Origin: a virus
Length of the DNA stretch: 27,764 bases
Virus record (IMG/VR): IMGVR_UViG_3300042519_000691
Span: 1-27,764 of that record
Direction: 5' to 3' (one strand)
Both the position numbers and the translations under genes were made by a program. The stretch's first letter is position 1. Each line of letters opens with the position of its first letter. Below are positions 2,343-18,140 of this stretch, in pieces. The notes beneath the pieces are model-generated. The model worked only from the letters and a program-made list of their open reading frames with translations. It was not told the DNA's origin and did no database searches.

Positions 2343-5300
2343 ATGGCAAGAATCAAAAAATATGCGGATAATTTAACGCAAAATTTAACTTATTTTCAAA
2401 CATTTGTAACAGATACAAATCCAAATTCGGATTATTTTAGAATTACTGAATTTAAAGAATCATTTACTGGAGGTAAGAATGGATTTCTAATTGAAGGCTC
2501 TGAGTATTTAAAAGAGAGTACTGATATAAAAATAGAAATATTAGACGTTGAAGGTAATCCAATTTATTTTGAACCAGGTAATGGTGTTCCTGAGTACTAT
2601 GAGGGGTTATCAAAAGTTATAGCTGTTTACATATATGAAGATACTCCAATTGGTAATGCGAAAATTACTATATTGGGAGAATTAAAAACTTATTTGGATG
2701 GGGATGGTATTGCTCAACCAATTCCTAGTGAATGGGCTGGTATATATAACGTTAAGTGGGAAAGAGAATTTAAAGTAAATAGATTACTTTCAAATGAAGA
2801 TAAGGTAAGATTTTATGTAAGACCTGAAGTCACTATTAGTGAAATAGTTAAACCAATATTTTCAAATGTAGTTGCACCAAAAACTCAAAGTGGAATTATA
2901 AATGGTATTGCACAGGTTCCTGTGGCGGGCACTTCATTAACAAATTATACATCACCGAGAACTTATATTTTAGAAACCGTTGGTAATTCGTTTTGGACGG
3001 GTTCTATTGTTGGAACGTATTTAGATACCAACTTATTAGTATCAGATGCAACCTCTCCACTTGGAAGTGCGGCACCACTTATACCATATAAACCACTAGT
3101 AACCCAGGTAATTAATTCAAGAGAAATATTAGTACAGCCACCATATACTGAATATGGCTTAGTAGCTAATACTGAAAATGCAACATATACCGGAATATTT
3201 AATTATACCGAGGGTGTAGATAATTTAAAAACGGCATTAACTGGTTCATTTGCAAAAATAACATTAGCGGATTTGACTACTTTTGTGGGAGATTGTGCTA
3301 GAGTTAAAATATTTAGGAAATCAACGGCAGACTTATCTGATTTTCAATTTGTTCAAGAAATACAATTAGAATCAAATGAAATTTTAGTTGATTTAGCATC
3401 TACTACAAAAAATCAAGAAAATTATGGATTATTTGATAATATCAATTTTAAAGAATATTGGGTAACATCCTCAAACGATTTGGATGCATCATTTGAACAA
3501 TCGTTTTTATTTGATTCTATAAAATTAAACAGTACATCCGGTGTAAATAAATTCTTTACAACAAAATCATTAAATATAAATGAAGGTATTGAATACAGTT
3601 TAAATTTTAATGTTAGAAAAGAAGCAATTGGCAATCGTAGTAATTACATTGAAGCATATTTAAGTGGTTCTAAACAAACAATTGTAAATGGTTCACCTGC
3701 TACACTTCAAGTAAAACAAAGTATTGTAAGATTAGATACTCAAAATTCTTTACTTGAAAAACAAATTATTACTGAAAATATAAAAGCTGAAGAAATAAAT
3801 AATGCTAGATTATATTTCGACATAAAAGGATTTGATTGGCATATTGCCGATGTTAGTTTAAAAGCATCACAAGAAACGGCATTTTCTCCAGATGAAATTA
3901 CATTTATTCAATCAGTACCAAGAAGTTTACCAGTTGAAACATTTATATATCGTTTTGAATTTTACGATATAAATAATAATTATATACCTGTATTAGTTGA
4001 AGAAACAAAAACATTTGATGGAGGAAATTTACAAAGAATACAAAAAGGATTAGTATTTTCACCTAGATCGCTAACATTTCAATTTGATTCGGGTTCAAAT
4101 CCAGTACCACCGACTGTTGTAGGGTTTACGGTGACAAAAAATTTACTAACAGGTTCAGTCAATTATACATCACAATCTTTTGATTTTTTTGGAGATGAGT
4201 TATTTGCTTCAGATTATACCGCATCATTTACCGGCCAAAGATATCCTGGATTACTTAGTGATATTACATCCGATGCTCCTACAATGACTGTTGGTAATTT
4301 CACAGGTTCTAGAGGCGATAAGTTAGTACAAATTGTAAAAATTACTGGAGAAGTTGAAGGATATACTGATACTGTTATATTCACTAAAGTATTAGACGGA
4401 TTTGGTGGGGTAAACTATTTGATTAGACCGTATAGAGGTACTCAGATTAGAAATAGTAGTACATCATCTTTAGAGATTCAGGCTATACGAATAGATGGTG
4501 TAAATGATATTCAATTGAGTAGTTTAACCAAACCAGAAAAAGGTTGGCCTGATAAACAATTACACATCATATCTCGTTCGGCTGATGGAGCTGAGAAATT
4601 TGTAAATTTATCATACGCATCTTCTAGTGGGTATGTTAGAGGATTGATAACTGGTTCTTTGGGTAGTGGTGAAATTAATTATAACGCAATATTCAATAGA
4701 GATTCGATAGATTTTAGAAGAACGATATATTTGATATCATCCGCATCCGCTGCATCTAGTCCGGCATATATAGCATCAGCATCCGTTGTTGCATCACAAA
4801 TATTAGAAGATTTACAAGATGGATTGGATAGTGGTGTTGTAATTTATAACGCAGATTCATTTACAATAAATCCAAGAACAGATAAATTATTTAAACCAGT
4901 ATTTGGATTTGCAACTGCATCATTTGCAAAAAGAGGAACGGCTGCAGCTGAAATCGACGCAGTAACAGCATCATTTCAAGTATACCCATCAATGTCAATA
5001 AATAGAGATTGGGTTCCTGAATATTGGATGTATTATATGACTCAAAGTTTAGACCCAACAATTACTGTTGTTGCTAAAGATGATAATAAAATTTTAATAC
5101 CTTCACAAAAGCCAGAAGGAGTTGAATCATTCTATGTTAGAAGTCCTTTAAATCAAACTAAAAATTTAACACTAACATTTACATATACTGAACCTTGGAC
5201 ATCGGCATCCGTTAGTATTGATAAAACATTTACAATTGTACCGGAAGGTAAGCAAGGAGATGAAAGTATTGTATTTGAAGTAAGTCCAATATCAGTAGTT

Positions 5301-8300
5301 CTTGGCGCAAATTCAAGAGGGATTGTAAATGATTACAGACCATCTATAACCGATATTAGATTAAAGCAAGGTTCTAAATATCTTGCGTTTAGTTCAAGTG
5401 CACATGTGTTGGATAACTTAAATACTCATGGTACATTCTATATAGCAACGGCATCTATAATAGATACCAATGTTACGGCCGGTAATGTTCAATTTACTTC
5501 ATCATTTTTAGTACCATATACTGCATCTTTAATAGTAAGTGCTTCATCAAATATGACAGATTTAAGTGGAAGTATTGAGTATCCCTTAATTATACATCCA
5601 TACTTTACATCTTCGATTTATAGCGCTAGTGTATTTGTAAACTATACAAAGATATTAGAAGGAGCTCCGCCAATTCAAATAATAATATCACCCACATCGG
5701 TAGCATTAACAGCAGATGAAGTTGGATACATTACACCAGGTGGATACTCCGCAGCAAATACAACGATACAAGTAAAAGACGGAGATGATTTTTTAAAATT
5801 AACAACAACTGAATCTTTTGCAAACGCCGATACTAGAAAAGGTACATACACAATTAATTCAATAGCTGCAAATGCTATTCAAGTTACAAAAATAGCATCT
5901 TCATCTTTATCTGGATTAACAGGAACTGTAACTTATAATCGATTTGATTATCCATTTGTTTCTGCAAGTGCACTTTATACACTTCAAGTATATCCTTACG
6001 CATTGGGTGCTGGGCATCAACCTACTTCATCTATTTTTACTCGTACGCAAACATTTACAAAAAATGTAACACCACCTAAAGCTCGTAGTGTAGATTTCAA
6101 AGCATCCGCATATACAGTAAACTATGATAGAAATGGTAGAGTATCGTTAGCATCGCAATCGCCAATTATATTATCAGCAACTGCATTTAATACAACCGCA
6201 TCGGCTGATAAGGTATATATTGTAATATCGGAAATAGCGCAGGATGGTTCTGAAAGTGGTGAATCCGCACCAATACCCGGCGCGGGAAATCCTGTAACAT
6301 TTACATTACCAGATGTAAACTTTGAGGATGTAGCACCCGGTTCAATAAAAACATTTAAAGTTAAAATTACTGATGGAAATCCATACACATCTCCAACTGT
6401 AAATCCATATAGGGCAGAAGCTCAATTAACGATAAGTGGTGTAAAAGCCGGTGCAGACTCATACAAGCTAGTAGCATCAAATGAAAGCACTGCTATAACC
6501 GCTGATTTATGGGGACCTACTATATTTTCTAATACCGGTATGAAAATCACCACATTTAATGGTACTCAACAATTAATAAATGAAACTAGTGCATTACCAC
6601 AAGCCAATTTATTTGATGAAAATTTAGACTTTGAGGGGAATCCGATTGGGGTATTAGGGTATTCATCCGCATCGATAGTTTATAAAGATAATTGGATTGG
6701 ATTAACTGGAGGAACGCCTCCAAAGCTCACAGCATTATCAAACCCCGCTTCAATTGGAGATATAATTAGTTGGACTACGCCAGCTACAAATACATCTGGA
6801 AAAATTGTATATAGAGTAGATTTTGAAGGAGATTCATCTACAACTGACCCATTGGTAAGACCGTTAGCTAGACAAACTCAATTTGTAACTCAATCAATAT
6901 CTGTTCAATTTACACCACCACCTCCGTATGATGTAAAGATGACTAATGAAAATTCATCCGCAGTTTATAAAGTAGCGGGTACGTTATCATTTGCTGGAAC
7001 TGGTACACAAATTAGAGTTTATAGAGGAGGCACTGAATTGGTGAATACGAATTATAATCCATTGGTACCAGGTCCTGATCTTGATGCATACGGAAATTAT
7101 GGATATAAAGATAAATGTAGAATTAGTATAGACTCATATTCATCGGGTATAATTACTTTAGCCGGAACTTTAACTGGAGGTAACCCTGTTCCTGGTGCAC
7201 CCGCAACAATGGGAGATATTATAGGTTGGGCTACACCGGCTTCAAATCCAAGTGCGCAAATAGTTTATGAAATTAATTGTGAAGGTAGGCAAACTTTTTA
7301 TAAAACACAATCCCTATCAATTCAATATGAAGGTAATGTAGGCCCGGGTCTTGTTATGAGAGGTGAGTGGGATGCAACTAAAGATTATTATGGTTCAGTT
7401 GAAAACATAAATGATAGATTGGATGTTGTTACTTACCAAGCCACTTCAGATGATACAAAATATTATGCAGCAATTAGTGGGTCTGGCCCAAACACTTGGG
7501 TAAATCCAACTACATCAACTTTTTATAGAGGAGTATCGCCACCTGCAGGTTTTACTTTTAATGTACTAGCACAAGCACCAACACCAAGTACAACACAAGT
7601 ACCACCAGTAGCATATTGGAGATATTTGGGAACGCAAGATTTCTTTGTGGCAGCTAAGTTGGCAATATTTGAAAAATCATATGTTAAGAATTCTATAAAC
7701 GTTGGTACTAAGGATACCAGTGGTGATTTTGCTAATATTGTAATAAACGGAGGAAGACCGGACCCATATATTGCTTTAGGGCAAGTTGGTAGTACTGCTG
7801 GAACGGCTGGTACATCTGGTACATCAACCACTGGATCTGGTGTTATCGGATATGATAAGCCTGGTATATTTTTAGGAATGTATGAAAATGGTTCTTTCGG
7901 TACAACTGGTAGATTCTCAATAAAAACTACTTCTACTTCTGGAAAGGGAATGTCTTGGGATGGTGATGTTTTAACTATTATAGGGGCAATTAGACAAATT
8001 CAACCGGGTGTTAGTGAGGGTTCGTTAAGGGGAGCTTGGACATCTGGAGATACTTATTACACAAATGATATAGTTTCATACGGAGGACAAAGTTGGAGAT
8101 GTACATCGGCGCAAGCACAAAATTATCAAAACATTGCAACAAACGATACAAATGCATTAACTGGATATCCCGGTTCTGGTCCTTGGGCAATTGCGGCCTC
8201 AGCAGGAACATCTGGAACTTCAGGAGCTCTCGGTGCTACTGGTGGACCCGGTCCTGGTGTAGTTTATAGAGGACCGTGGGCTCAATTTGAATCCGATGGA

Positions 8301-10502
8301 ACTACTGCTAAACAATATTTCAGAGAACCAGCATCACCTGCAGCTGCGACAAGACGTGATGTTGTAAAAGGAAGTGATGGTGCATATTATTTATGTAAGG
8401 TAAATCACACAACCGCAGTAGGTAGTGGGGGTGTTTCAACTAAACCAATTACTGGTGTTGATTATGCAACATATTGGGAATCATTTGGAGCAACATTTAG
8501 TTCAGTAGCAACCGATGTATTATTATCACAGGATGCAACTATTACAAGAGCATTAGTTATGGGTAGTGATGATGATGGTATTGGTATAATACGTTCCGTC
8601 GATGCAACTGCATTTAATGCAGGAGCTGGATTTTTTATGGATAAAACTGGAAGGGCTAGATTTGGAGACCCTACTGGAAATCAAATAAAATTTGATGGTA
8701 CTAATTTTGAAATCACAGGTTCAATAAACGCAACGGACGGACAAATTGGGGATTGGGTTATTGATGCTACTACAAGAGCATTAAGAGATACTGATTCTCA
8801 AATAATACTTGACCCAAATATTCCTGAAATACAATTTTATACTGGTAGTGGTGCTGGTAGGGTAAAAAAAGTAAGTATTTCTCCTGTAAAAGCATTATCA
8901 TCTCCAAGTGCTACACCTATAATATTATATCTTACTGGTTCATATACATTACCAACTCCATCTATAACAACCACAGCGGGCTATACTACTCAAGAAGTAA
9001 AATATTCGGCATATACAACTTCCGGTAGTGTATCGGATGGCGTAAATAATTTAGGTAGATATAACGTTACAGAACTTGGATTTGTACAAGTAACTGCGAA
9101 TATACCTACTTTCGAAGTAGAAACACCACCGAATTCAATATCACATACCACCACCTTTCCATCGTACTTCCCTCAATACTCAGAGCAAAAACACGGAGGA
9201 TACTCTAGTCCACAAACAGCGGTTGCGTATTTGTATTTAGAAGCTGTTAAGGTTAGTGATGATAGTGTAATAGGGCAGTCGTATATTGGTAATTCCAGTT
9301 CAACCGGAGAGTATGATGAGGGTAACTATTATATAGAAGATTTTTACTCCGTTACGGGTGATACTTTAATTATAAATGAATTTGGTGAAAGTATTTACGC
9401 AAAAGATGTTATCGTAGGACAAATTATTACGGCGTGGGATTGGCATAGTTCGTTTAAAAAATACAAAATAGAAAATATCAAAACCAGAACTGTTAATAAA
9501 ATATTCAAAGTATCAGCTGGCGGTAAGGAAGTGAAAGTTTCCGAAACACATGGATTTTGGCTAGACGGTAATGCAGAAATAAAAGTAAGTGATTTAATAC
9601 CGGGTGAAAGTAAAATAAATATAAAAGATGGCAATACTATAAAATTAGTAATTGTAGATAATGTTGAAATTATTGAAAGTGTTCAAACTGTATATACGTT
9701 TGTTGTACCTGTTGCACATAACTACATTTCAAATGATATAATATCACACAATCCTAGTTATTGGGCACTTACCCCTGCAAATACAATATCTGCAGTTTCG
9801 TATCCATTTACCGGTGGAGAAATTACAACCAATATATTCTTAAGTGCTACAGGATTGATAAGATTTAGATATGCATTTTATTTTTACGCAGCAGCGGGCA
9901 CCGCGGTAAGTTTAGGAGCGACTGTCGATAGTTATAGCACTTCAGTTTCAAATTGGACGTTTAATGCGTTTAGTACAATGACAGCACTCGGTGATACAAT
10001 GTCAATACTAGCTCCAGCCAACTTTGTTGAAATTAATGCAGGTGGTTTGCAAGTAATATCGGATTCGGATAAATATGTTAGAATACCAAGAAGAGCTACG
10101 GGAGCGGCTGTTGGGGATTTACTTAAGGTATTCGGTGGAAATATCAGAACGGATAATATACTACCAAATGATACTGGACGAACGGTTGGTTCATCTTATG
10201 AAAAGTATGATTATATGTATTCTGCGCATTACTATGGAACTCCATACGTTGCAGCCACGAACGGATATACATATTTAACAAATGGAATTATATTACAATG
10301 GGGATACCAAGCCTACACTACAACAGCAACACCTGTGGTATTTCCAATAACGTTCCCTAATGCTGTTTATTCAGTACATGTAACAACAAACAGACTCAAT
10401 TCGGGAGCAAATGGATATAATCATGCTGGTAGTCTAACAACAGCAGGATTTAGCGCAGTATTTGATGCAGTAGGTGGATGGTGGTCGGCAATTGGAGCTT
10501 AA
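2343..10502 (+). CDS. Giant tail fibre / receptor-binding adhesin with embedded Hint domain
   Basis: This 2719-residue protein is most likely a tail fibre or tail-tip adhesin. The N-terminal ~900 residues are beta-rich with no family I can name. Ig-like modules follow: three related units near residues 970-1370, then a tandem pair near 1371-1523 and 1529-1664 sharing GDII-W-TPA, IVY and TQS-S-Q. Three segments opening with R-G-x-W (near 1672, 1894 and 1974) resemble short carbohydrate-binding modules. Gly/Thr/Ser linkers (near 1819 and 1954) look collagen-like. A segment around 2060-2150 (GAGFFMDKTGRARFGDPTGN, then an I-TGSINATDG stretch) is typical of tail-tip proteins. A Hint domain occupies 2336-2470. 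The last ~75 residues (IILQWG, FPITFPNAVY) look like a gp53-like fibre tip. The next gene is a fibre chaperone. Composition is strongly Ser/Thr/Asn-rich with very few Cys. ATG at 2343 is preceded by AATAGGAACATAC, without a strong ribosome site. Confidence 0.85.
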   Translation: MARIKKYADNLTQNLTYFQTFVTDTNPNSDYFRITEFKESFTGGKNGFLIEGSEYLKESTDIKIEILDVEGNPIYFEPGNGVPEYYEGLSKVIAVYIYEDTPIGNAKITILGELKTYLDGDGIAQPIPSEWAGIYNVKWEREFKVNRLLSNEDKVRFYVRPEVTISEIVKPIFSNVVAPKTQSGIINGIAQVPVAGTSLTNYTSPRTYILETVGNSFWTGSIVGTYLDTNLLVSDATSPLGSAAPLIPYKPLVTQVINSREILVQPPYTEYGLVANTENATYTGIFNYTEGVDNLKTALTGSFAKITLADLTTFVGDCARVKIFRKSTADLSDFQFVQEIQLESNEILVDLASTTKNQENYGLFDNINFKEYWVTSSNDLDASFEQSFLFDSIKLNSTSGVNKFFTTKSLNINEGIEYSLNFNVRKEAIGNRSNYIEAYLSGSKQTIVNGSPATLQVKQSIVRLDTQNSLLEKQIITENIKAEEINNARLYFDIKGFDWHIADVSLKASQETAFSPDEITFIQSVPRSLPVETFIYRFEFYDINNNYIPVLVEETKTFDGGNLQRIQKGLVFSPRSLTFQFDSGSNPVPPTVVGFTVTKNLLTGSVNYTSQSFDFFGDELFASDYTASFTGQRYPGLLSDITSDAPTMTVGNFTGSRGDKLVQIVKITGEVEGYTDTVIFTKVLDGFGGVNYLIRPYRGTQIRNSSTSSLEIQAIRIDGVNDIQLSSLTKPEKGWPDKQLHIISRSADGAEKFVNLSYASSSGYVRGLITGSLGSGEINYNAIFNRDSIDFRRTIYLISSASAASSPAYIASASVVASQILEDLQDGLDSGVVIYNADSFTINPRTDKLFKPVFGFATASFAKRGTAAAEIDAVTASFQVYPSMSINRDWVPEYWMYYMTQSLDPTITVVAKDDNKILIPSQKPEGVESFYVRSPLNQTKNLTLTFTYTEPWTSASVSIDKTFTIVPEGKQGDESIVFEVSPISVVLGANSRGIVNDYRPSITDIRLKQGSKYLAFSSSAHVLDNLNTHGTFYIATASIIDTNVTAGNVQFTSSFLVPYTASLIVSASSNMTDLSGSIEYPLIIHPYFTSSIYSASVFVNYTKILEGAPPIQIIISPTSVALTADEVGYITPGGYSAANTTIQVKDGDDFLKLTTTESFANADTRKGTYTINSIAANAIQVTKIASSSLSGLTGTVTYNRFDYPFVSASALYTLQVYPYALGAGHQPTSSIFTRTQTFTKNVTPPKARSVDFKASAYTVNYDRNGRVSLASQSPIILSATAFNTTASADKVYIVISEIAQDGSESGESAPIPGAGNPVTFTLPDVNFEDVAPGSIKTFKVKITDGNPYTSPTVNPYRAEAQLTISGVKAGADSYKLVASNESTAITADLWGPTIFSNTGMKITTFNGTQQLINETSALPQANLFDENLDFEGNPIGVLGYSSASIVYKDNWIGLTGGTPPKLTALSNPASIGDIISWTTPATNTSGKIVYRVDFEGDSSTTDPLVRPLARQTQFVTQSISVQFTPPPPYDVKMTNENSSAVYKVAGTLSFAGTGTQIRVYRGGTELVNTNYNPLVPGPDLDAYGNYGYKDKCRISIDSYSSGIITLAGTLTGGNPVPGAPATMGDIIGWATPASNPSAQIVYEINCEGRQTFYKTQSLSIQYEGNVGPGLVMRGEWDATKDYYGSVENINDRLDVVTYQATSDDTKYYAAISGSGPNTWVNPTTSTFYRGVSPPAGFTFNVLAQAPTPSTTQVPPVAYWRYLGTQDFFVAAKLAIFEKSYVKNSINVGTKDTSGDFANIVINGGRPDPYIALGQVGSTAGTAGTSGTSTTGSGVIGYDKPGIFLGMYENGSFGTTGRFSIKTTSTSGKGMSWDGDVLTIIGAIRQIQPGVSEGSLRGAWTSGDTYYTNDIVSYGGQSWRCTSAQAQNYQNIATNDTNALTGYPGSGPWAIAASAGTSGTSGALGATGGPGPGVVYRGPWAQFESDGTTAKQYFREPASPAAATRRDVVKGSDGAYYLCKVNHTTAVGSGGVSTKPITGVDYATYWESFGATFSSVATDVLLSQDATITRALVMGSDDDGIGIIRSVDATAFNAGAGFFMDKTGRARFGDPTGNQIKFDGTNFEITGSINATDGQIGDWVIDATTRALRDTDSQIILDPNIPEIQFYTGSGAGRVKKVSISPVKALSSPSATPIILYLTGSYTLPTPSITTTAGYTTQEVKYSAYTTSGSVSDGVNNLGRYNVTELGFVQVTANIPTFEVETPPNSISHTTTFPSYFPQYSEQKHGGYSSPQTAVAYLYLEAVKVSDDSVIGQSYIGNSSSTGEYDEGNYYIEDFYSVTGDTLIINEFGESIYAKDVIVGQIITAWDWHSSFKKYKIENIKTRTVNKIFKVSAGGKEVKVSETHGFWLDGNAEIKVSDLIPGESKINIKDGNTIKLVIVDNVEIIESVQTVYTFVVPVAHNYISNDIISHNPSYWALTPANTISAVSYPFTGGEITTNIFLSATGLIRFRYAFYFYAAAGTAVSLGATVDSYSTSVSNWTFNAFSTMTALGDTMSILAPANFVEINAGGLQVISDSDKYVRIPRRATGAAVGDLLKVFGGNIRTDNILPNDTGRTVGSSYEKYDYMYSAHYYGTPYVAATNGYTYLTNGIILQWGYQAYTTTATPVVFPITFPNAVYSVHVTTNRLNSGANGYNHAGSLTTAGFSAVFDAVGGWWSAIGA
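9348..9752 (+). other. Hint / intein-like (BIL-type) domain inside the fibre
   Basis: Residues 2336-2470 of the fibre form a 135-residue Hint module without a homing endonuclease. Block A reads SVTGDTLI, with Ser in place of the usual Cys1. Block B is represented by SETH (S/T-x-x-H). Block F reads VYTFVVPVAHNYI, and block G ends IISHN. The residue after the terminal Asn is Pro, not the Cys/Ser/Thr that class 1 inteins need for splicing. Length and motif order match mini-inteins and bacterial intein-like domains. Full splicing therefore looks unlikely; C-terminal cleavage by Asn cyclisation, or a degenerate module, is more plausible. Cleavage there would release a 249-residue tip fragment. Confidence 0.8.
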
Positions 10503-10516
10503 AAAAATAAAAATAT

Positions 10517-10888
10517 ATGATTTACTACGCAACATTTAATGAGACAGGTGATTATACCGGATTCTATACTGAAGAAATACATGGTGATAACATACCAACA
10601 CCAAATGTAGAATTGACAGAAGAGCAATGGAAAGAAGCTACTACTGGTAGATATAAATTAATAGATGGAGTGCACACACATACTCCACTTATACAAGAAG
10701 AAATAGATGCTAACGAATTGGCAATAGTTAAAAGTAATAGAAACAATTTACTTAACCAATCGGATTGGACACAATTGCCAAATAATCCACTAACATCTGA
10801 AAAGCAGGAAGAATGGGCGGTTTATAGACAACAATTAAGGGATATACCGGAAACAATTCCATATGTATTTCCAACTCCTCCACTTTAG
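10517..10888 (+). CDS. Tail fibre assembly chaperone (Phage_tail_APC-like)
   Basis: This 123-residue protein follows the fibre gene by 14 bases, the usual place for a dedicated fibre folding chaperone. The C-terminal half (about residues 72-110) contains RNNLLNQSDWTQLPNNPL and WAVYRQQLRDIPE, the hallmark R-x-x-L-L-x-x-SDW-x-x-x-x-x-x-P and W-x-x-YR-x-x-LRDIP pattern of phage tail assembly chaperones. The N-terminal half starts MIYYATFNETGDYTGFYTEE, like other fibre-assembly proteins that carry a host-sequence adaptor domain. It probably acts in the cytoplasm on the fibre C-terminus and is not expected in the virion. It has no separate promoter that I can see, so it is likely cotranscribed with the fibre. 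Confidence 0.8.
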   Translation: MIYYATFNETGDYTGFYTEEIHGDNIPTPNVELTEEQWKEATTGRYKLIDGVHTHTPLIQEEIDANELAIVKSNRNNLLNQSDWTQLPNNPLTSEKQEEWAVYRQQLRDIPETIPYVFPTPPL

Positions 10889-11287: not shown

Positions 11288-13465
11288 ATGTTAAAAAAGA
11301 AGTTACTCTATGTTGCTCCCCATTTATCTACCGGAGGACAACCACAATACCTATATAAGCAGGTAAAAGAATTCATAAAAGATTTTGAGATTGAAGTTGT
11401 TGAAATAAACAATAGCGGTGGTGATGCGTTTGTTGTTCAAAAAAATAGAATCAAATCGTTAGTACCTATACATACATTGGGGGATGATAAATCTACGATA
11501 CTAGAGATAATTCAGAAATTTAATCCTGATATTATACATTTTCAAGAAATACCAGAATTTGATTTAGCTCCATTTGTATTAGATAAAATATTTGAAAAAA
11601 ATAGGTCATATTTTATTGTAGCATCTACACATGGTTCATTAACTAACCCATCTGAAATATCTTACCATCCTGATAAATACATTTTAGTATCAGAATGGAG
11701 TAGACAGAGATTTATTGAAACTGGAGTAGAAACCGACATATGGCAATATCCTATTGAAGATTATGTATTTGATAAAGAGGCTGCACAAAAGGAATTAGGA
11801 TTAGACCCAACTTGGAAGCATGTACTTAATGTTGGGTTATTTGCACCAGGTAAAAATCAAGGAGAAATATTTGCAATAGCAACTCAACTACAAAAATATA
11901 AAATTAAATTTCACTTCGTAGGAAATCAGGCCGGAAATTTTGAACATTATTGGGGCCCATTGATGGAGCATGTTCCTGAAAATTGTGTAATATGGGGAGA
12001 ACGAACCGATGTGGATACATTTTATTCTGCAGTAGATATGTTTTATTTTGCATCTAAACTAGAATTAAATCCACTTTCAATAAAAGAAGCACTTTCATAT
12101 AAACTTCCTTGTATATTTAGAAAATTGCATACATATTTGGATACATATGATAATAATCCATTGGTAACTTATATTGATGACGATTTAAAATTAATTAAAA
12201 GAATTATATTAGAAAAACTACAACCGCAATTTAATGAAATACCTGGTTGGTTTTCATACGAAGATATATATAACGATGTAGTTACTTTATTAAATAACGA
12301 AGATACATTTGTTGAAGTAGGAACTTGGTTTGGTAAGTCTACAAATTATATGGCAAGTAAGATTAAAGAATCTGGTAAAGATATAAAATTTACAACCATA
12401 GATACATTCAAAGGAACTGATAATGAAACATTGCATAAAAATATAGTAGATAGTTTTAGTGGAGATATATTTTATGAGTTCATAGATAACACAGTCCTAT
12501 CAAATAATTACGGCTCATTCGATATTATAAAAGACACATCTCATAATGCATCTAATAACTTTTCAAACAATAGTATAAATTATATAATGTTAGATGCTGG
12601 ACATAGTTACGAAGATGTAAAAAATGATATTAATGTTTGGTACAAAAAAGTAAAACCAGGTGGTGTTATTAGTGGTGATGATTATGGAGGAACTTTCTTT
12701 CCTGGAGTTACCCAAGCAGCGGATGAATACTTTTATAAACAATTCAATAGAGGATTTAGAACTTGGTATCGTAAAAAACCTCGTATTCAAATAAAACATA
12801 TGTTGACTAGACCCAATGATATGAGAGAAAGAGTATCTATTCAATCTATTAAACAATTGGAAAAATATGGAATGTATTACGAACCGATTGTAAATCAACC
12901 ATACGAGGGATTTGCACCAGCTGAAAATTGTAGAAGGCCAGAACATATAAGTAAAGATAATAAGCCGGGTGAGTTATACCCTGGTGCAGGTTTAGGATGG
13001 ATGACTGGTAGACACTATGGTTGCTACTTAGCACATAGAATGGCATTGGAAACTATGGATACTGAAAAATTTGATTACACTTTAGTATTTGAAGCAGATG
13101 CATTTATCTATACGGGTTTGGAAGAATTTGTTGAAATAGTACATAAAGCATGTTTCTTATCAGAAAGAGATAATGTTCCATTTATTTCATTTGCAGATAA
13201 CCCATCAAGAGAAAAAACAAAAATTGATGAGTTGTTTTCAAAGACAGCAGCGAATCAAGACCTTGCACATTGTTATTTAATTCCAAATAGAGAAAAACAA
13301 TGGTGGGCCGATAGATTAAAAGATTGTGGTTGGGATGTTGGTGATTTGTGGTTTAATCATGTATTTATCAATCACCCAAGACCAAGATATACAACAAACA
13401 AAATGTATAGTAAGCAAGCAGAGGGATTCTCTTTATTGGATTTAACAGTTAAAACTTGGAGTTAA
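11288..13465 (+). CDS. Three-domain GT4 glycosyltransferase - methyltransferase - GT25-like glycosyltransferase
   Basis: The 725-residue protein appears to fuse three enzymes of glycan assembly. Residues 1-300 are a GT4-type, GT-B fold glycosyltransferase: the start KKKLLYVAPHLSTGGQPQYL is typical, and the E-x7-E donor-binding motif is Glu259/Glu267. Residues about 325-500 are a class I SAM-dependent methyltransferase: motif I is EVGTWFGKS from Glu343, followed by LDAGHSYEDV (Asp436, His439) and PGGVISGDDY. Residues about 505-725 resemble GT25 (LPS-type) transferases: RPNDMRERV at 508, GCYLAHRMAL, and an acidic E-A-D metal-site candidate at 602-604. The stop overlaps the next start by one base, so the two genes are probably translationally coupled. 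A host-type promoter drives the pair. Acceptor and donor sugars are unknown; phage fibre and host surface glycans are both possible. Confidence 0.8.
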   Translation: MLKKKLLYVAPHLSTGGQPQYLYKQVKEFIKDFEIEVVEINNSGGDAFVVQKNRIKSLVPIHTLGDDKSTILEIIQKFNPDIIHFQEIPEFDLAPFVLDKIFEKNRSYFIVASTHGSLTNPSEISYHPDKYILVSEWSRQRFIETGVETDIWQYPIEDYVFDKEAAQKELGLDPTWKHVLNVGLFAPGKNQGEIFAIATQLQKYKIKFHFVGNQAGNFEHYWGPLMEHVPENCVIWGERTDVDTFYSAVDMFYFASKLELNPLSIKEALSYKLPCIFRKLHTYLDTYDNNPLVTYIDDDLKLIKRIILEKLQPQFNEIPGWFSYEDIYNDVVTLLNNEDTFVEVGTWFGKSTNYMASKIKESGKDIKFTTIDTFKGTDNETLHKNIVDSFSGDIFYEFIDNTVLSNNYGSFDIIKDTSHNASNNFSNNSINYIMLDAGHSYEDVKNDINVWYKKVKPGGVISGDDYGGTFFPGVTQAADEYFYKQFNRGFRTWYRKKPRIQIKHMLTRPNDMRERVSIQSIKQLEKYGMYYEPIVNQPYEGFAPAENCRRPEHISKDNKPGELYPGAGLGWMTGRHYGCYLAHRMALETMDTEKFDYTLVFEADAFIYTGLEEFVEIVHKACFLSERDNVPFISFADNPSREKTKIDELFSKTAANQDLAHCYLIPNREKQWWADRLKDCGWDVGDLWFNHVFINHPRPRYTTNKMYSKQAEGFSLLDLTVKTWS

Positions 13466-14613
13466 TGATATACGATAATTTAAAAAAGAACAAAAATAAT
13501 ATAGTTGAGGTACAAAACAAAGTGATAGTTCATTTTGTTAAAGGACCGTATGTAGAAATAAAAGGAAGTAAGGCTTCGGAATATAAAGTTGAATTTATAG
13601 ATAATAAAACCAATAAAATACATTATGCAGCAACTATAAAAAACAATTGTTGGTGTAAATCAAATATTGAATATTTTGTAGAATGGAAAATAAAAATTTA
13701 TGAAAATGATAAATTATGGTATGAGTACATTTATAATGCAAAAGGTAAGCGTGTTTATATAGCAATGGATTCAAAGGCATTAGGGGATTCTTTGGCATGG
13801 GTAGCGTATGTTGAAGAATTTAGAAAAAAACACGAATGTGAAGTAACAACTTCAACATTTATGAACGATATGTTTATACAACAATATCCCAATGTAACAT
13901 TTGTATCACCAGGAACTCCTGTTGAAAATCTTTACGCGATGTATTGTGTTGGATTATTTTACAATGATGATAGTTCTATAAATTTAATGAAAAATCCAAT
14001 AGACCCTAAAACACAAACAATGCAAAAAATGTGTTCCGATATATTGGGATTGGATTTCATAGAAGTTAGAACTAAAATAAAAAAACGAAATATAAAAATA
14101 GACCCAAATCTTAAACAAGTTTGTATTGGTATATTTGGGACCGCTCAATCTAAATTTTGGAATAACCCAACAGGATGGCAAGATGTTGTTAATTGGTTAA
14201 AGGAACGTGGGTATGTTGTAAAATTACTTTCGAGAGAGGGTGATGATTATATGGGAAATAAATTACCAAACGGAATTGTACAACATCCCAATGGACCATT
14301 AGAATTGGTAATGGATGAAATGTTAAAATCAAAAGCATTTATTGGTATTGGTAGTGGATTGAGTTGGTTGAGTTGGAGTTTAAATGTTCCAACTGTATTG
14401 ATTAGTGGATTCTCATACGATTGGGCCGAGATGAAAGATTGTTATAGAGTAGCAGCACCAAAAGGTAAATGTGAGGGATGTTTTAATAGACTTAGATTGG
14501 ATCCTGGTGATTGGAATTGGTGTCCGGACCATAAGGGAACTGATAGACAATTTGAGTGTACAAACTCAATAACATCAGAAATGGTAATAAAAGAATTGGA
14601 AAAATTCTTATAA
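13465..14613 (+). CDS. TibC-like protein O-heptosyltransferase homologue (BAHT/GT9-type)
   Basis: I take the ATG at 13465, which shares its A with the upstream stop (TAATG), rather than an in-frame TTG at 13456. The 382-residue product resembles bacterial autotransporter heptosyltransferases such as TibC, which O-glycosylate Ser residues of strand-loop-strand adhesins. Visible signatures are an N-terminal beta domain (VHFVKGPYVEIKG), SKALGDSLAWVAYVEEFRKK, a late GIGSGLSWLSW nucleotide-sugar loop, and a C-terminal four-cysteine finger. The finger has Cys336 and Cys339 as CxxC, Cys353 in WCPDHKGT and Cys365 in QFEC; in TibC the equivalent cysteines bind iron. These features are rare outside this family. 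Donor sugar is unproven. Its proximity to a huge Ser/Thr-rich fibre makes that fibre a candidate substrate. Confidence 0.8.
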   Translation: MIYDNLKKNKNNIVEVQNKVIVHFVKGPYVEIKGSKASEYKVEFIDNKTNKIHYAATIKNNCWCKSNIEYFVEWKIKIYENDKLWYEYIYNAKGKRVYIAMDSKALGDSLAWVAYVEEFRKKHECEVTTSTFMNDMFIQQYPNVTFVSPGTPVENLYAMYCVGLFYNDDSSINLMKNPIDPKTQTMQKMCSDILGLDFIEVRTKIKKRNIKIDPNLKQVCIGIFGTAQSKFWNNPTGWQDVVNWLKERGYVVKLLSREGDDYMGNKLPNGIVQHPNGPLELVMDEMLKSKAFIGIGSGLSWLSWSLNVPTVLISGFSYDWAEMKDCYRVAAPKGKCEGCFNRLRLDPGDWNWCPDHKGTDRQFECTNSITSEMVIKELEKFL

Positions 14614-15086: not shown

Positions 15087-18000
15087 ATGAACGAATTATC
15101 AAACTTTTTAAGAGAAACAATATTGGGAGAAGCGGCTCAAATGGACAAAGTAGTTGTTGTCTATTCGGGTCGTTTTCAACCATTTCATAAAGGACACTAC
15201 GCAACTTATGATAATTTAGTACGCAAATTCGGTAAGGATAGTGTATATATCGGAACTTCTAATGTTACCGATTCAAAGAAATCTCCATTTAATTTTAAGG
15301 AAAAGAAAGTAATAATGACAACAATGTTTGGTATTCCATCAAACAAAATTGTCAATATTAAAAATCCATATGCGCCTGAAGAAATACTAAAAAAGTATGA
15401 ATCTGATACAACTGGTTTAATAGTTGTAGTTGGAGAGAAGGATGAAAATCGTTTAAGTGGTAAATACTTTACTCCATATAAAGGCAAAGTAGAGAAAGGA
15501 TATTTGGATAAAGGATATGTGTATGCTTCACCTGCTCAATCAAATCCTATTAGTGGTACTGATGTTAGATATTGGTTAAGTGCTGGTAGCTCGGATGATA
15601 GAAAGAAAAACTTTACAAAAGCATATCCAAAGTTTGATTCTCAGATATTTAAATTAATTACTCTTAAGTTAAAGAGTTTAAAAGAATGTATTAACGAAGA
15701 AATTAAACTAAACGTAAAAATTGGTGATACTATTTTAATGGGTAGATTTAAAAATAAAAAAGTAGTTGTAAAAACAATAGGAACTGATGATTGGGGGATG
15801 CCAACAATCAATGGTAAAAAGGTAGCAACGTTTAGAATTCCTAAAAAAGAAAACCTAAAAGAAATTAATCTCGGTGGATACGGTGCAGATCCTGGTGAAC
15901 CTGATACTGGATATATTCCTGATGGAAAAGCTAGAATATTAAATACAACAAAACCAGAACCTTGGTTTAATCAAGGTGGATATACTCAATTACATACTCC
16001 AAAAGCCGATGATATGAGAGGTAAAGGAAAATCAAAAGATACCGAAACTCAATTTAGAAAAGCGTATTATAAAGTTAAAAACGTAACACAAAGTACATTA
16101 AATCCAGCAGATGACCCGCATAAAGTTGAAGATTGGGAAGAAACTAATAGAGATACTCCATTAGAAAAACCTAAAAGATTTTGGGAATTACCTGATAATC
16201 AAAAAAATACAATAATTTCAAAAGAAGATATTAAAGAAATAGTTGAAGATTTTGATTCTATATTAGATGAGATGGGATTGCCGGGTGGAGCTGGTGTGGG
16301 TTTGAGTTTGCCGGGTGGATATATTAATGGAGCACCAAAAGCTGATGATGTTAAGAAGGTTAGTAAAAAACTTAACAACAAAGGAATAAGTGGTTATGAA
16401 GAAATTGATGAAGATAAAATTCCTGGTGGTTTGGCAAATGGTAAAACTTTAATTGATTTGGCTAATAAGTGGGATTCTAAAGGATATTACGAACCAAAGC
16501 AATTTGCAGCAGAATATATTAAACCTAAATTGATAAATGGTATTAGAGTTGAAATGGAGCATACATCTGATATTAGATATGCAGCCGAAATAGCAATGGA
16601 CCATTTATGGGAAGATTTAAATTATTATCAAAAGTTATCAAGTATTGAAGGTGATAGTATAGCTGAAGCAAGTGGTAATGGTGCTTTCTATAATGATGGA
16701 AATGCAACAACTGGTACTCAATGGAATGGTACATGGGATGATTATGATAAGCAAAAATACTATTTAGATAATTTGGAAGGTTGGGATTTCTTTGATGAAA
16801 TACCATCTAAAAGAGAAAAGAAAAAAGCAGTAGACCAAAAATTACCAATAGATAATCATAAAGATACAACTGATAATTACAATCGTATATTAAAGCATGA
16901 TTTAAAATCCCCAATTGATTTTCTTAAAGAATCTTTATTAACTGAAGGTGGTGCGTATGGTCATATGAACCATCCATTTGATATTGAGATGAATCTTACC
17001 TTTGGTGATTTAAAACAAATTGTGGTAAGAGCTCTTAATGGTGATTTAGAATTAGCAAGAGAGAAGACTGATGGACAAGCATTGGCAGTTAGTTGGGTAA
17101 ATGGTAGATTAGTTGCAGCTCGTAACAAATCACACCTAAAGAACAAAGGAACTGGCGCTATGACAATAGGACAAGTAGCAGATAAGTTTGCCGGTAGAGG
17201 TGGATTAACCGATGCATATAATTTCGCTATGAAAGATTTATCCGCAGCAATAGCAGCCCTATCTGAACCTCAACGTAAGAAGGTTTTTAAGGATGGTAGT
17301 TCGTTTATGAACTTAGAAGTAATATATCCAACGTCTGTAAATGTAATCCCCTACAATCAACCCCTATTAGTATTTCATGGTACGTTTGATTATGATATGG
17401 ATGGTACTATTGTAGGTGAAAACCAACAAGCGGCATCTATATTGGGTGGAATGATTAAGCAAGTAAATGCACACGTTCAATCTAAGTACACAATACAGGG
17501 CCCTCCAATTAATAAACTTCCTAAATCAGAACACCTTTCTAAATTGCAAGGAAAGTATTTAGGAATGATTACTAAACTTCAAAATGAGTTTAAGTTAGCA
17601 GATAGTGATGGTGTGGCGGATTATCATCAATCATGGTGGACTGATTTCGTAGAAAAGAAAGCTAAGAAGTTAGATTATCAACAAAAAATAGGATTAATTA
17701 AAAGATGGGCTTTTGGGGACAAAGGTTTCCGTATAGCAGAAATAACTGATGACAAATTAAGAGCATGGGCTGAACAAACCGATAAGCAAGACCAACAAAA
17801 GATATCAAAGCAAAATCTAATGAGATTTGAGGAGATATTCTTAGGAGTTGGTGCGGATGTATTATCGTTTATGGAATCGGTACTTACTGCAAATCCTGAT
17901 AGTGCTAAAAGACAAATGGTAGCACGTTTAGAAACAACAATATCCCAAGTAAAAGCAAGTGGTGACCCTAAGAAGATTGCAAAATTAAAATTAGAATTAC

Positions 18001-18140
18001 AAAGATTAAATGCTTTGGGTGGATTCGAAAAGATTGTACCAAATGAGGGTATTGTATTTGTCTATGGAGGTAACACTTACAAATTAACAGGCGCATTCGC
18101 ACCCCTAAATCAAATTTTAGGTATTTTCTTTGATAAATAA
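15087..18140 (+). CDS. Cytidylyltransferase-like / DUF5661-like / ligase-like fusion protein
   Basis: The 1017-residue protein has at least three parts. Residues 20-200 form a nucleotidyltransferase of the NMNAT/cytidylyltransferase superfamily: SGRFQPFHKGH carries the HxGH motif (His34, His37) and ISGTDVR at 155-161 is the second signature. Around residue 475-505 an EMEHT...EIAMDHLWEDLNYYQKL stretch matches the pattern of DUF5661. Residues about 625-1017 look like a polynucleotide ligase or RNA-ligase-type nucleotidyltransferase: KTDG at Lys660 (motif I), F-M-N-L-E with Glu744 (motif III), EGIVF at Glu987 (motif IV) and Lys999 (motif V), with an unusually long insert between III and IV. A short helical N-terminus ends LGE-AA, and LTE-GG occurs before the ligase-like domain; both fit the T4 prohead-protease consensus. 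Substrates are unknown; NAD or RNA repair are possibilities only. Confidence 0.7.
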   Translation: MNELSNFLRETILGEAAQMDKVVVVYSGRFQPFHKGHYATYDNLVRKFGKDSVYIGTSNVTDSKKSPFNFKEKKVIMTTMFGIPSNKIVNIKNPYAPEEILKKYESDTTGLIVVVGEKDENRLSGKYFTPYKGKVEKGYLDKGYVYASPAQSNPISGTDVRYWLSAGSSDDRKKNFTKAYPKFDSQIFKLITLKLKSLKECINEEIKLNVKIGDTILMGRFKNKKVVVKTIGTDDWGMPTINGKKVATFRIPKKENLKEINLGGYGADPGEPDTGYIPDGKARILNTTKPEPWFNQGGYTQLHTPKADDMRGKGKSKDTETQFRKAYYKVKNVTQSTLNPADDPHKVEDWEETNRDTPLEKPKRFWELPDNQKNTIISKEDIKEIVEDFDSILDEMGLPGGAGVGLSLPGGYINGAPKADDVKKVSKKLNNKGISGYEEIDEDKIPGGLANGKTLIDLANKWDSKGYYEPKQFAAEYIKPKLINGIRVEMEHTSDIRYAAEIAMDHLWEDLNYYQKLSSIEGDSIAEASGNGAFYNDGNATTGTQWNGTWDDYDKQKYYLDNLEGWDFFDEIPSKREKKKAVDQKLPIDNHKDTTDNYNRILKHDLKSPIDFLKESLLTEGGAYGHMNHPFDIEMNLTFGDLKQIVVRALNGDLELAREKTDGQALAVSWVNGRLVAARNKSHLKNKGTGAMTIGQVADKFAGRGGLTDAYNFAMKDLSAAIAALSEPQRKKVFKDGSSFMNLEVIYPTSVNVIPYNQPLLVFHGTFDYDMDGTIVGENQQAASILGGMIKQVNAHVQSKYTIQGPPINKLPKSEHLSKLQGKYLGMITKLQNEFKLADSDGVADYHQSWWTDFVEKKAKKLDYQQKIGLIKRWAFGDKGFRIAEITDDKLRAWAEQTDKQDQQKISKQNLMRFEEIFLGVGADVLSFMESVLTANPDSAKRQMVARLETTISQVKASGDPKKIAKLKLELQRLNALGGFEKIVPNEGIVFVYGGNTYKLTGAFAPLNQILGIFFDK

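Follow-up and report, generated by a model that had tools for sequence, protein, structure and literature searches.

A serine-initiated Hint domain in phage tail fibres as a probable bacterial-intein-like self-processing module

The stretch of DNA analysed here, referred to as the window, comprises positions 1 to 27,764 of the IMG/VR virus record IMGVR_UViG_3300042519_000691. Family matches to a T4-type portal protein (4.3e-65) and a prohead protease (7.2e-28) identify this 27.8-kb record as a T4-like phage, and the nearest isolates to its large terminase are the Flavobacterium phages 'immuto', with 57% identity. An open reading frame on the + strand (2343..10502) encodes a long tail fibre-like protein of 2719 aa, the C-terminal tip of which (9753..10502, + strand; 249 aa) consists of a beta domain and a Gp53-like_C receptor-binding end (PF21882, 7.4e-13; PHROG tail fibre, 1.8e-11). 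The adjoining gene on the same strand (10517..10888) encodes a tail-fibre assembly chaperone of the Phage_tail_APC type (PF16778, 4.1e-15; PHROG tail fiber assembly, 8.9e-14). Tip and chaperone together bear out an earlier reading of the locus, made from the sequence only, which had placed a Hint/intein-like domain in a phage tail fibre. This domain lies between the tip and an upstream fibre part, the N-flank (8682..9347, + strand), which is variable in alignments, beta-rich by prediction and ends in GNYYIEDFY. In a model of the fibre segment (mean pLDDT 81), beta-rich parts flank the Hint on both sides. The same stretch is present at 100% in three further contigs, so an assembly artefact can be ruled out as the source of the Hint.

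The genes directly 3' of the fibre genes (11288-14613) encode a glycosyltransferase-methyltransferase fusion and a TibC-like protein (a weak match), products that possibly serve in the glycosylation of the virion or of the host surface. Further on, between the fibre and terminase genes, positions 15087-18140 encode a 1017-aa protein with a cytidylyltransferase-like N terminus.

The Hint domain itself occupies 9348..9752 on the + strand (aa 2336-2470, 135 aa), as delimited by Pfam and PDB profile matches, an AlphaFold2 model and structural matches, and carries no endonuclease insert. Codon read-out confirms the previously given limits exactly: the domain opens with Ser1 (Ser2336; 9348..9350, + strand), which aligns to intein residue 1 and is the predicted N-terminal nucleophile, the codon of Asn2470 stands at 9750-9752, the +1 residue is Pro (9753..9755, + strand), and 249 residues remain up to the stop at 10502. 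Likewise, the four intein blocks that had been recognised are all present in the window, namely A (SVTGDTLI), B (VSETHGFW), F (VYTFVVPVAHNY) and G (ISNDIISHN). Within them, the S-x-x-H of block B (domain Ser65 and His68) maps to 9540..9551 and the terminal His134-Asn135 of block G to 9747..9752, both on the + strand, the Asn being aligned to the last intein residue. Taken alone, the window Hint matches the Pfam family Intein_splicing modestly, at 3.3e-05 and under the gathering score; the same family is matched by all 16 relatives scanned (best 5.2e-12), and PT-HINT (Pfam) by one of the 16. A profile of the family, compared with solved structures, retrieves inteins and bacterial-intein-like (BIL) domains with E values down to 1.5e-08.

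The Hint fold that the sequence-only reading supposed is what AlphaFold2 returns for this region, with a core pLDDT mostly above 90. Structural comparison of the model gives Z scores of 15-21 overall with inteins, hedgehog and BIL domains: 20.9 over 141 residues for the Ssp DnaB intein, 19.1-20.2 for BIL domains (19.1 for 2lwy) and 19.0 for hedgehog (1at0). Alignment of the model (residues 26-160) with the Mtu RecA intein (chain 1-440) pairs Ser2336 with the first residue of that intein and Asn2470 with its last. Positions 9348-9752 of the window are a Hint domain.

When viral contigs were scanned with the Hint and, in separate runs, with its flanks, a family of 32 distinct Hints emerged, all at the corresponding site in fibres of uncultured phages. 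The members are 135-150 aa long, none has an endonuclease insert, and their pairwise identity averages 43% (minimum 26%) over a tree length of 15 substitutions per site. Ten positions are invariant in 32/32, i.e., Ser1, Val2, Val64, His68, Phe70, Val115, Asn125, Tyr126, His134 and Asn135, and four of them are the catalytic ones (Ser1, the block-B His and the terminal His-Asn); block-B position 65 is Ser in 30 members and Thr in two. Members that only the flanks recovered share the Ser1, block-B His and His-Asn, so this invariance is not a product of the search patterns.

Block F has fared differently from these four residues. In many inteins the block-F His helps the cyclisation of Asn, and position 4 of the block is often Asp. 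Here the His is kept in only three of the 32 members, the window among them, and position 4 is Thr or Ser in every one. The latter also rules out a class 3 intein, which has Cys at that position. With the block-F His and Asp lost in most members, the rate of processing may be low. The same loss could indicate that the Hint has lost its reactivity and persists as a dead or purely structural decoration, all the more so as a Pro at +1 would block ordinary splicing and a fibre linker can tolerate a 135-aa side domain. However, a structural role needs none of the four catalytic residues, which have stayed fixed over the entire tree while most positions vary, and we consider a dead domain unlikely.

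Rates of substitution speak of the domain as a whole. Of the eleven pairs with a dS of at least 0.049, nine have a Hint dN/dS of 0.11-0.28, and the two pairs with the member L078 have higher values (0.53 and 0.64): the Hint is under purifying selection. The downstream tip often has a dN/dS above that of the Hint, as in the pair formed by the window and L016 (0.74 for the tip vs 0.27 for the Hint). In this pair, identity amounts to 45% in the 100 aa before the Hint, 70% within it and 39% after it. Most pairs similarly have a Hint more conserved than the 100 aa on either side, the exceptions being L064/L089 and L070/L071, in which conservation of the downstream tip equals or exceeds that of the Hint. 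A sharp tip-swap boundary at the Hint, with a constant shaft before it and a variable tip after it, is supported only in part: each flank varies, and the Hint forms a conserved island between the two.

In contrast to the catalytic residues, the residue following the Hint is free to vary. Across the 32 members, +1 is Pro in 14, Val in six, Ser in four (L019, L030, L031 and L072), Thr in four (L057, L058, L064 and L089), Ala in two, and Phe and Asp in one each. Ser, Thr or Cys therefore stands at +1 in 8/32 (25%), compared with a background of 25.1% over positions +2 to +60. After clustering at 70% identity, the 21 representatives have Pro in ten, Val in four, Ser and Thr in two each, and one each of Ala, Phe and Asp; Pro lies far above its own background of 2.1%, an excess from which kinship among the members limits inference. 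On the tree, the +1 residue has changed at least 11 times, with at least six changes between Pro and another residue. One change is seen between L016 and L019, whose Hints are 97% identical: in L019 an AGT codon has been inserted exactly at the junction, turning CACAAT-CCA into CACAAT-AGT-CCA and HN-P into HN-SP. As read from these junctions, a +1 nucleophile is not required across the family, and the free +1 residue together with the L016/L019 insertion argues that canonical splicing is not what selection maintains family-wide. The likeness to BIL domains put forward in the sequence-only reading gains strength here, with catalytic residues invariant and +1 free throughout the family.

The insertion site itself has been found empty once. 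The Hint-less relative L119 (L119:3200-4225) reads GAYYYATANSYSPTGYVWTY where the window has GNYYIEDFY-Hint-PSYW; no Hint occurs anywhere else in its 57.7-kb record, and a tblastn search with this region gave no match. Conversely, nine contigs (L105-L113; L105:3089-3991) have two tandem Hints at this site, identical in all nine. The first is the only Hint with Cys1 at this fibre site and ends in HN before a Val; a 7-aa linker (VKLESFV) leads to a Ser1 Hint with Asp after its HN. The tips downstream of the Hint differ as well, with Gp53-like_C in the window and L005, Peptidase_S74 in L034, L041, L057 and L064, and no Pfam family matched by those of L030, L031 and L039. A relative of the upstream fibre part (L068:438-947) has its frame cut short by a TAG that follows ATYSS, and the sequence continues past this codon.

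Apart from the tandem pairs there is one Hint per record, and no copy outside the fibre was found in the eleven records searched (up to 270 kb). A scan of genome contigs from 84,980 species with a four-member Hint profile found no relative, by a short-pattern method that can miss distant ones, and the Hint-fibre pair was found in no isolate phage of the collection searched. The nearest Hint by sequence (~29%) resides in the terminase of Corynebacterium phages. Two other inserts came to light: L092, L093, L094 and L095 have, in another structural-looking protein, a Cys1 Hint with Thr at +1 (HN before TSSKLS or TLSKLS), which would be splicing-competent judging by its residues, and L045:5001-5477 is an intein-like insert with Ser1 and a Lys-Asn end before Thr in an apparent phage DNA polymerase.

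These data bear on the possibility that the Hint is a canonical class 1 mini-intein that excises itself from the fibre by splicing and that is mobile or was so until recently. The catalytic positions are maintained at both ends of the domain, four members with Ser and four with Thr at +1 have what such splicing needs there, and L119 demonstrates that the flanks can make one continuous fibre. On the other hand, the +1 nucleophile is missing in 24/32, including the window, and is no more frequent than the background, while mobility has left no trace in the form of an endonuclease, a second site or protein, or a copy elsewhere in the eleven records. A spliced and mobile class 1 intein appears to us quite unlikely.

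We rather favour, as a fairly probable explanation, that the module is an active, resident autoprocessing BIL-like Hint with Ser1, situated in the linker before the receptor-binding end of the fibre. Since the residues for cutting are kept and the +1 residue for splicing is not, self-processing of the fibre along bacterial-intein-like lines is probable. Ser1 would form an ester at the upstream junction, and the terminal Asn would cyclise and thereby cut the Asn-Pro bond. With Pro at +1, transesterification to the side chain of that residue is impossible. This Pro is compatible with Asn cyclisation because FlhB self-cleaves between Asn269 and Pro270 (PMC3640470), and by analogy an Asn-Pro cut should be expected in the window Hint. 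As the ester cannot pass to a side chain at +1, processing would mainly yield the shaft of the fibre, the Hint on its own and the 249-aa tip; a tip that is not rejoined may stay on the shaft via the trimeric contacts of the fibre. The cut 249 residues from the end that the sequence-only reading had proposed is therefore allowed by the Pro at +1, but as a single cut it is probably incomplete: the fact that Ser1 never varies suggests activation at the N-terminal junction too. Double cleavage or ligation by aminolysis would be as likely as a single C-terminal cut.

For BIL domains without a +1 nucleophile, the proposed route to splicing is that the freed amine attacks the thioester at the N-terminal junction (PMC4031507). 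Some shaft and tip could be rejoined in the same way, the new N-terminal amine of the tip attacking the Ser1 ester. Such ligation might even dominate, in which case the Hint would remove itself and the tip would be sealed to the shaft, with Pro acting as a secondary-amine nucleophile. An invariant Ser1 is superfluous for a C-terminal cut alone, and the continuous junction of L119 is of similar length. However, aminolysis of oxoesters is slow, and the oxoesters of Ser1 are poorer substrates for it than the thioesters of Cys1 BIL domains. Moreover, the BIL domains known so far yield mostly cleavage products (PMC4031507, PMC7664689). We hold a predominance of ligation to be rather doubtful.

A further outcome of ester formation would resemble that of hedgehog proteins, in that Ser1 would hand over the C-terminal end of the shaft to an outside nucleophile, such as water or a group on the host surface, so that the fibre end is attached or trimmed on contact. 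Hint folds do include hedgehog, as the match to 1at0 recalls, and fibre tips contact the host surface. Yet no acceptor-binding region is apparent beside the Hint, and such a transfer would not demand an invariant terminal His-Asn; this outcome is very improbable.

Most known phage inteins reside in DNA-metabolism and terminase genes and are presumed to be parasites. The non-subscription literature searched for Hints in tail fibres describes inteins only in terminase, ribonucleotide reductase and dCTP deaminase and does not describe tail fibres processed by a Hint; an earlier description may exist elsewhere. In the present family the Hint is instead a fixed part of a host-recognition protein, with its catalytic residues kept and the +1 requirement dropped. 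We tentatively suggest that T4-like phages may keep Ser1 Hints as a self-removing joint between shaft and tip, which would be excised at assembly and either rejoined or left cut by a chemistry free of side chains. If this were true, tip attachment would accept any first residue, leaving tips free to diverge or to be exchanged. The family would offer a natural setting in which to study Ser1-based processing that proceeds without a +1 side chain, and a testable example of self-processing during phage fibre maturation.

Several known systems share features with this family. Class 1 inteins such as Ssp DnaB, Mtu RecA and gp41-1 have the same fold, a Ser1 or Cys1, the block-B His and the terminal His-Asn. 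The window family differs from them in that +1 is not kept as Ser, Thr or Cys, there is no homing endonuclease, the host is not a DNA-metabolism protein, and the block-F Asp and His are mostly lost. Another case is BN7874_136 of Phage NCTB, a tail protein whose Hint, already annotated without a described function, is likewise followed by a non-nucleophile (AVMVAKK after HN), although it has Cys1 and lies at the extreme C terminus, whereas the window Hint stands between shaft and tip. This collagen-like tail protein (L177:1960-3941) ends seven residues after its Cys1 Hint, and a separate 153-aa protein annotated as an intein domain follows it. The Peptidase_S74 intramolecular chaperone, found near the C terminus in L034, L041, L057 and L064, is also a self-processing fibre module, but it is unrelated, sits at the far C-terminal end and is absent from the window fibre. 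The NPTH motif of FlhB/YscU undergoes the Asn-Pro self-cleavage that is proposed for the window Hint (PMC3640470), albeit in another fold and without a Hint domain.

The type-A BIL domains (Clostridium thermocellum 2lwy; Tetrahymena BUBL1 BIL2 6y75, a C1A mutant; MafB) share further features with the family. Both are Hints of about 140 aa without an endonuclease, both have the terminal His-Asn (32/32 in the window family) and no conserved +1 nucleophile, and both lie where an extracellular protein is variable, close to a constant/variable junction, here in a tail fibre. The family differs by its host, a phage tail fibre, and by Ser1 in 32/32 in place of Cys1; to our knowledge, the BIL domains studied so far have Cys at position 1 and form a thioester. 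A-type BIL domains with a His-Asn end occur in hypervariable regions of bacterial proteins (PMC7765530), and in class 1 MafB a BIL domain stands where the constant and variable parts meet (PMC4287609). BIL domains and inteins match the window Hint about equally, and because neither sequence nor fold clearly separates the family from inteins, we speak of a BIL-like Ser1 variant. By analogy, the window Hint would work like a type-A BIL domain, as a Ser1 variant of this kind rather than as a proven member of the type.
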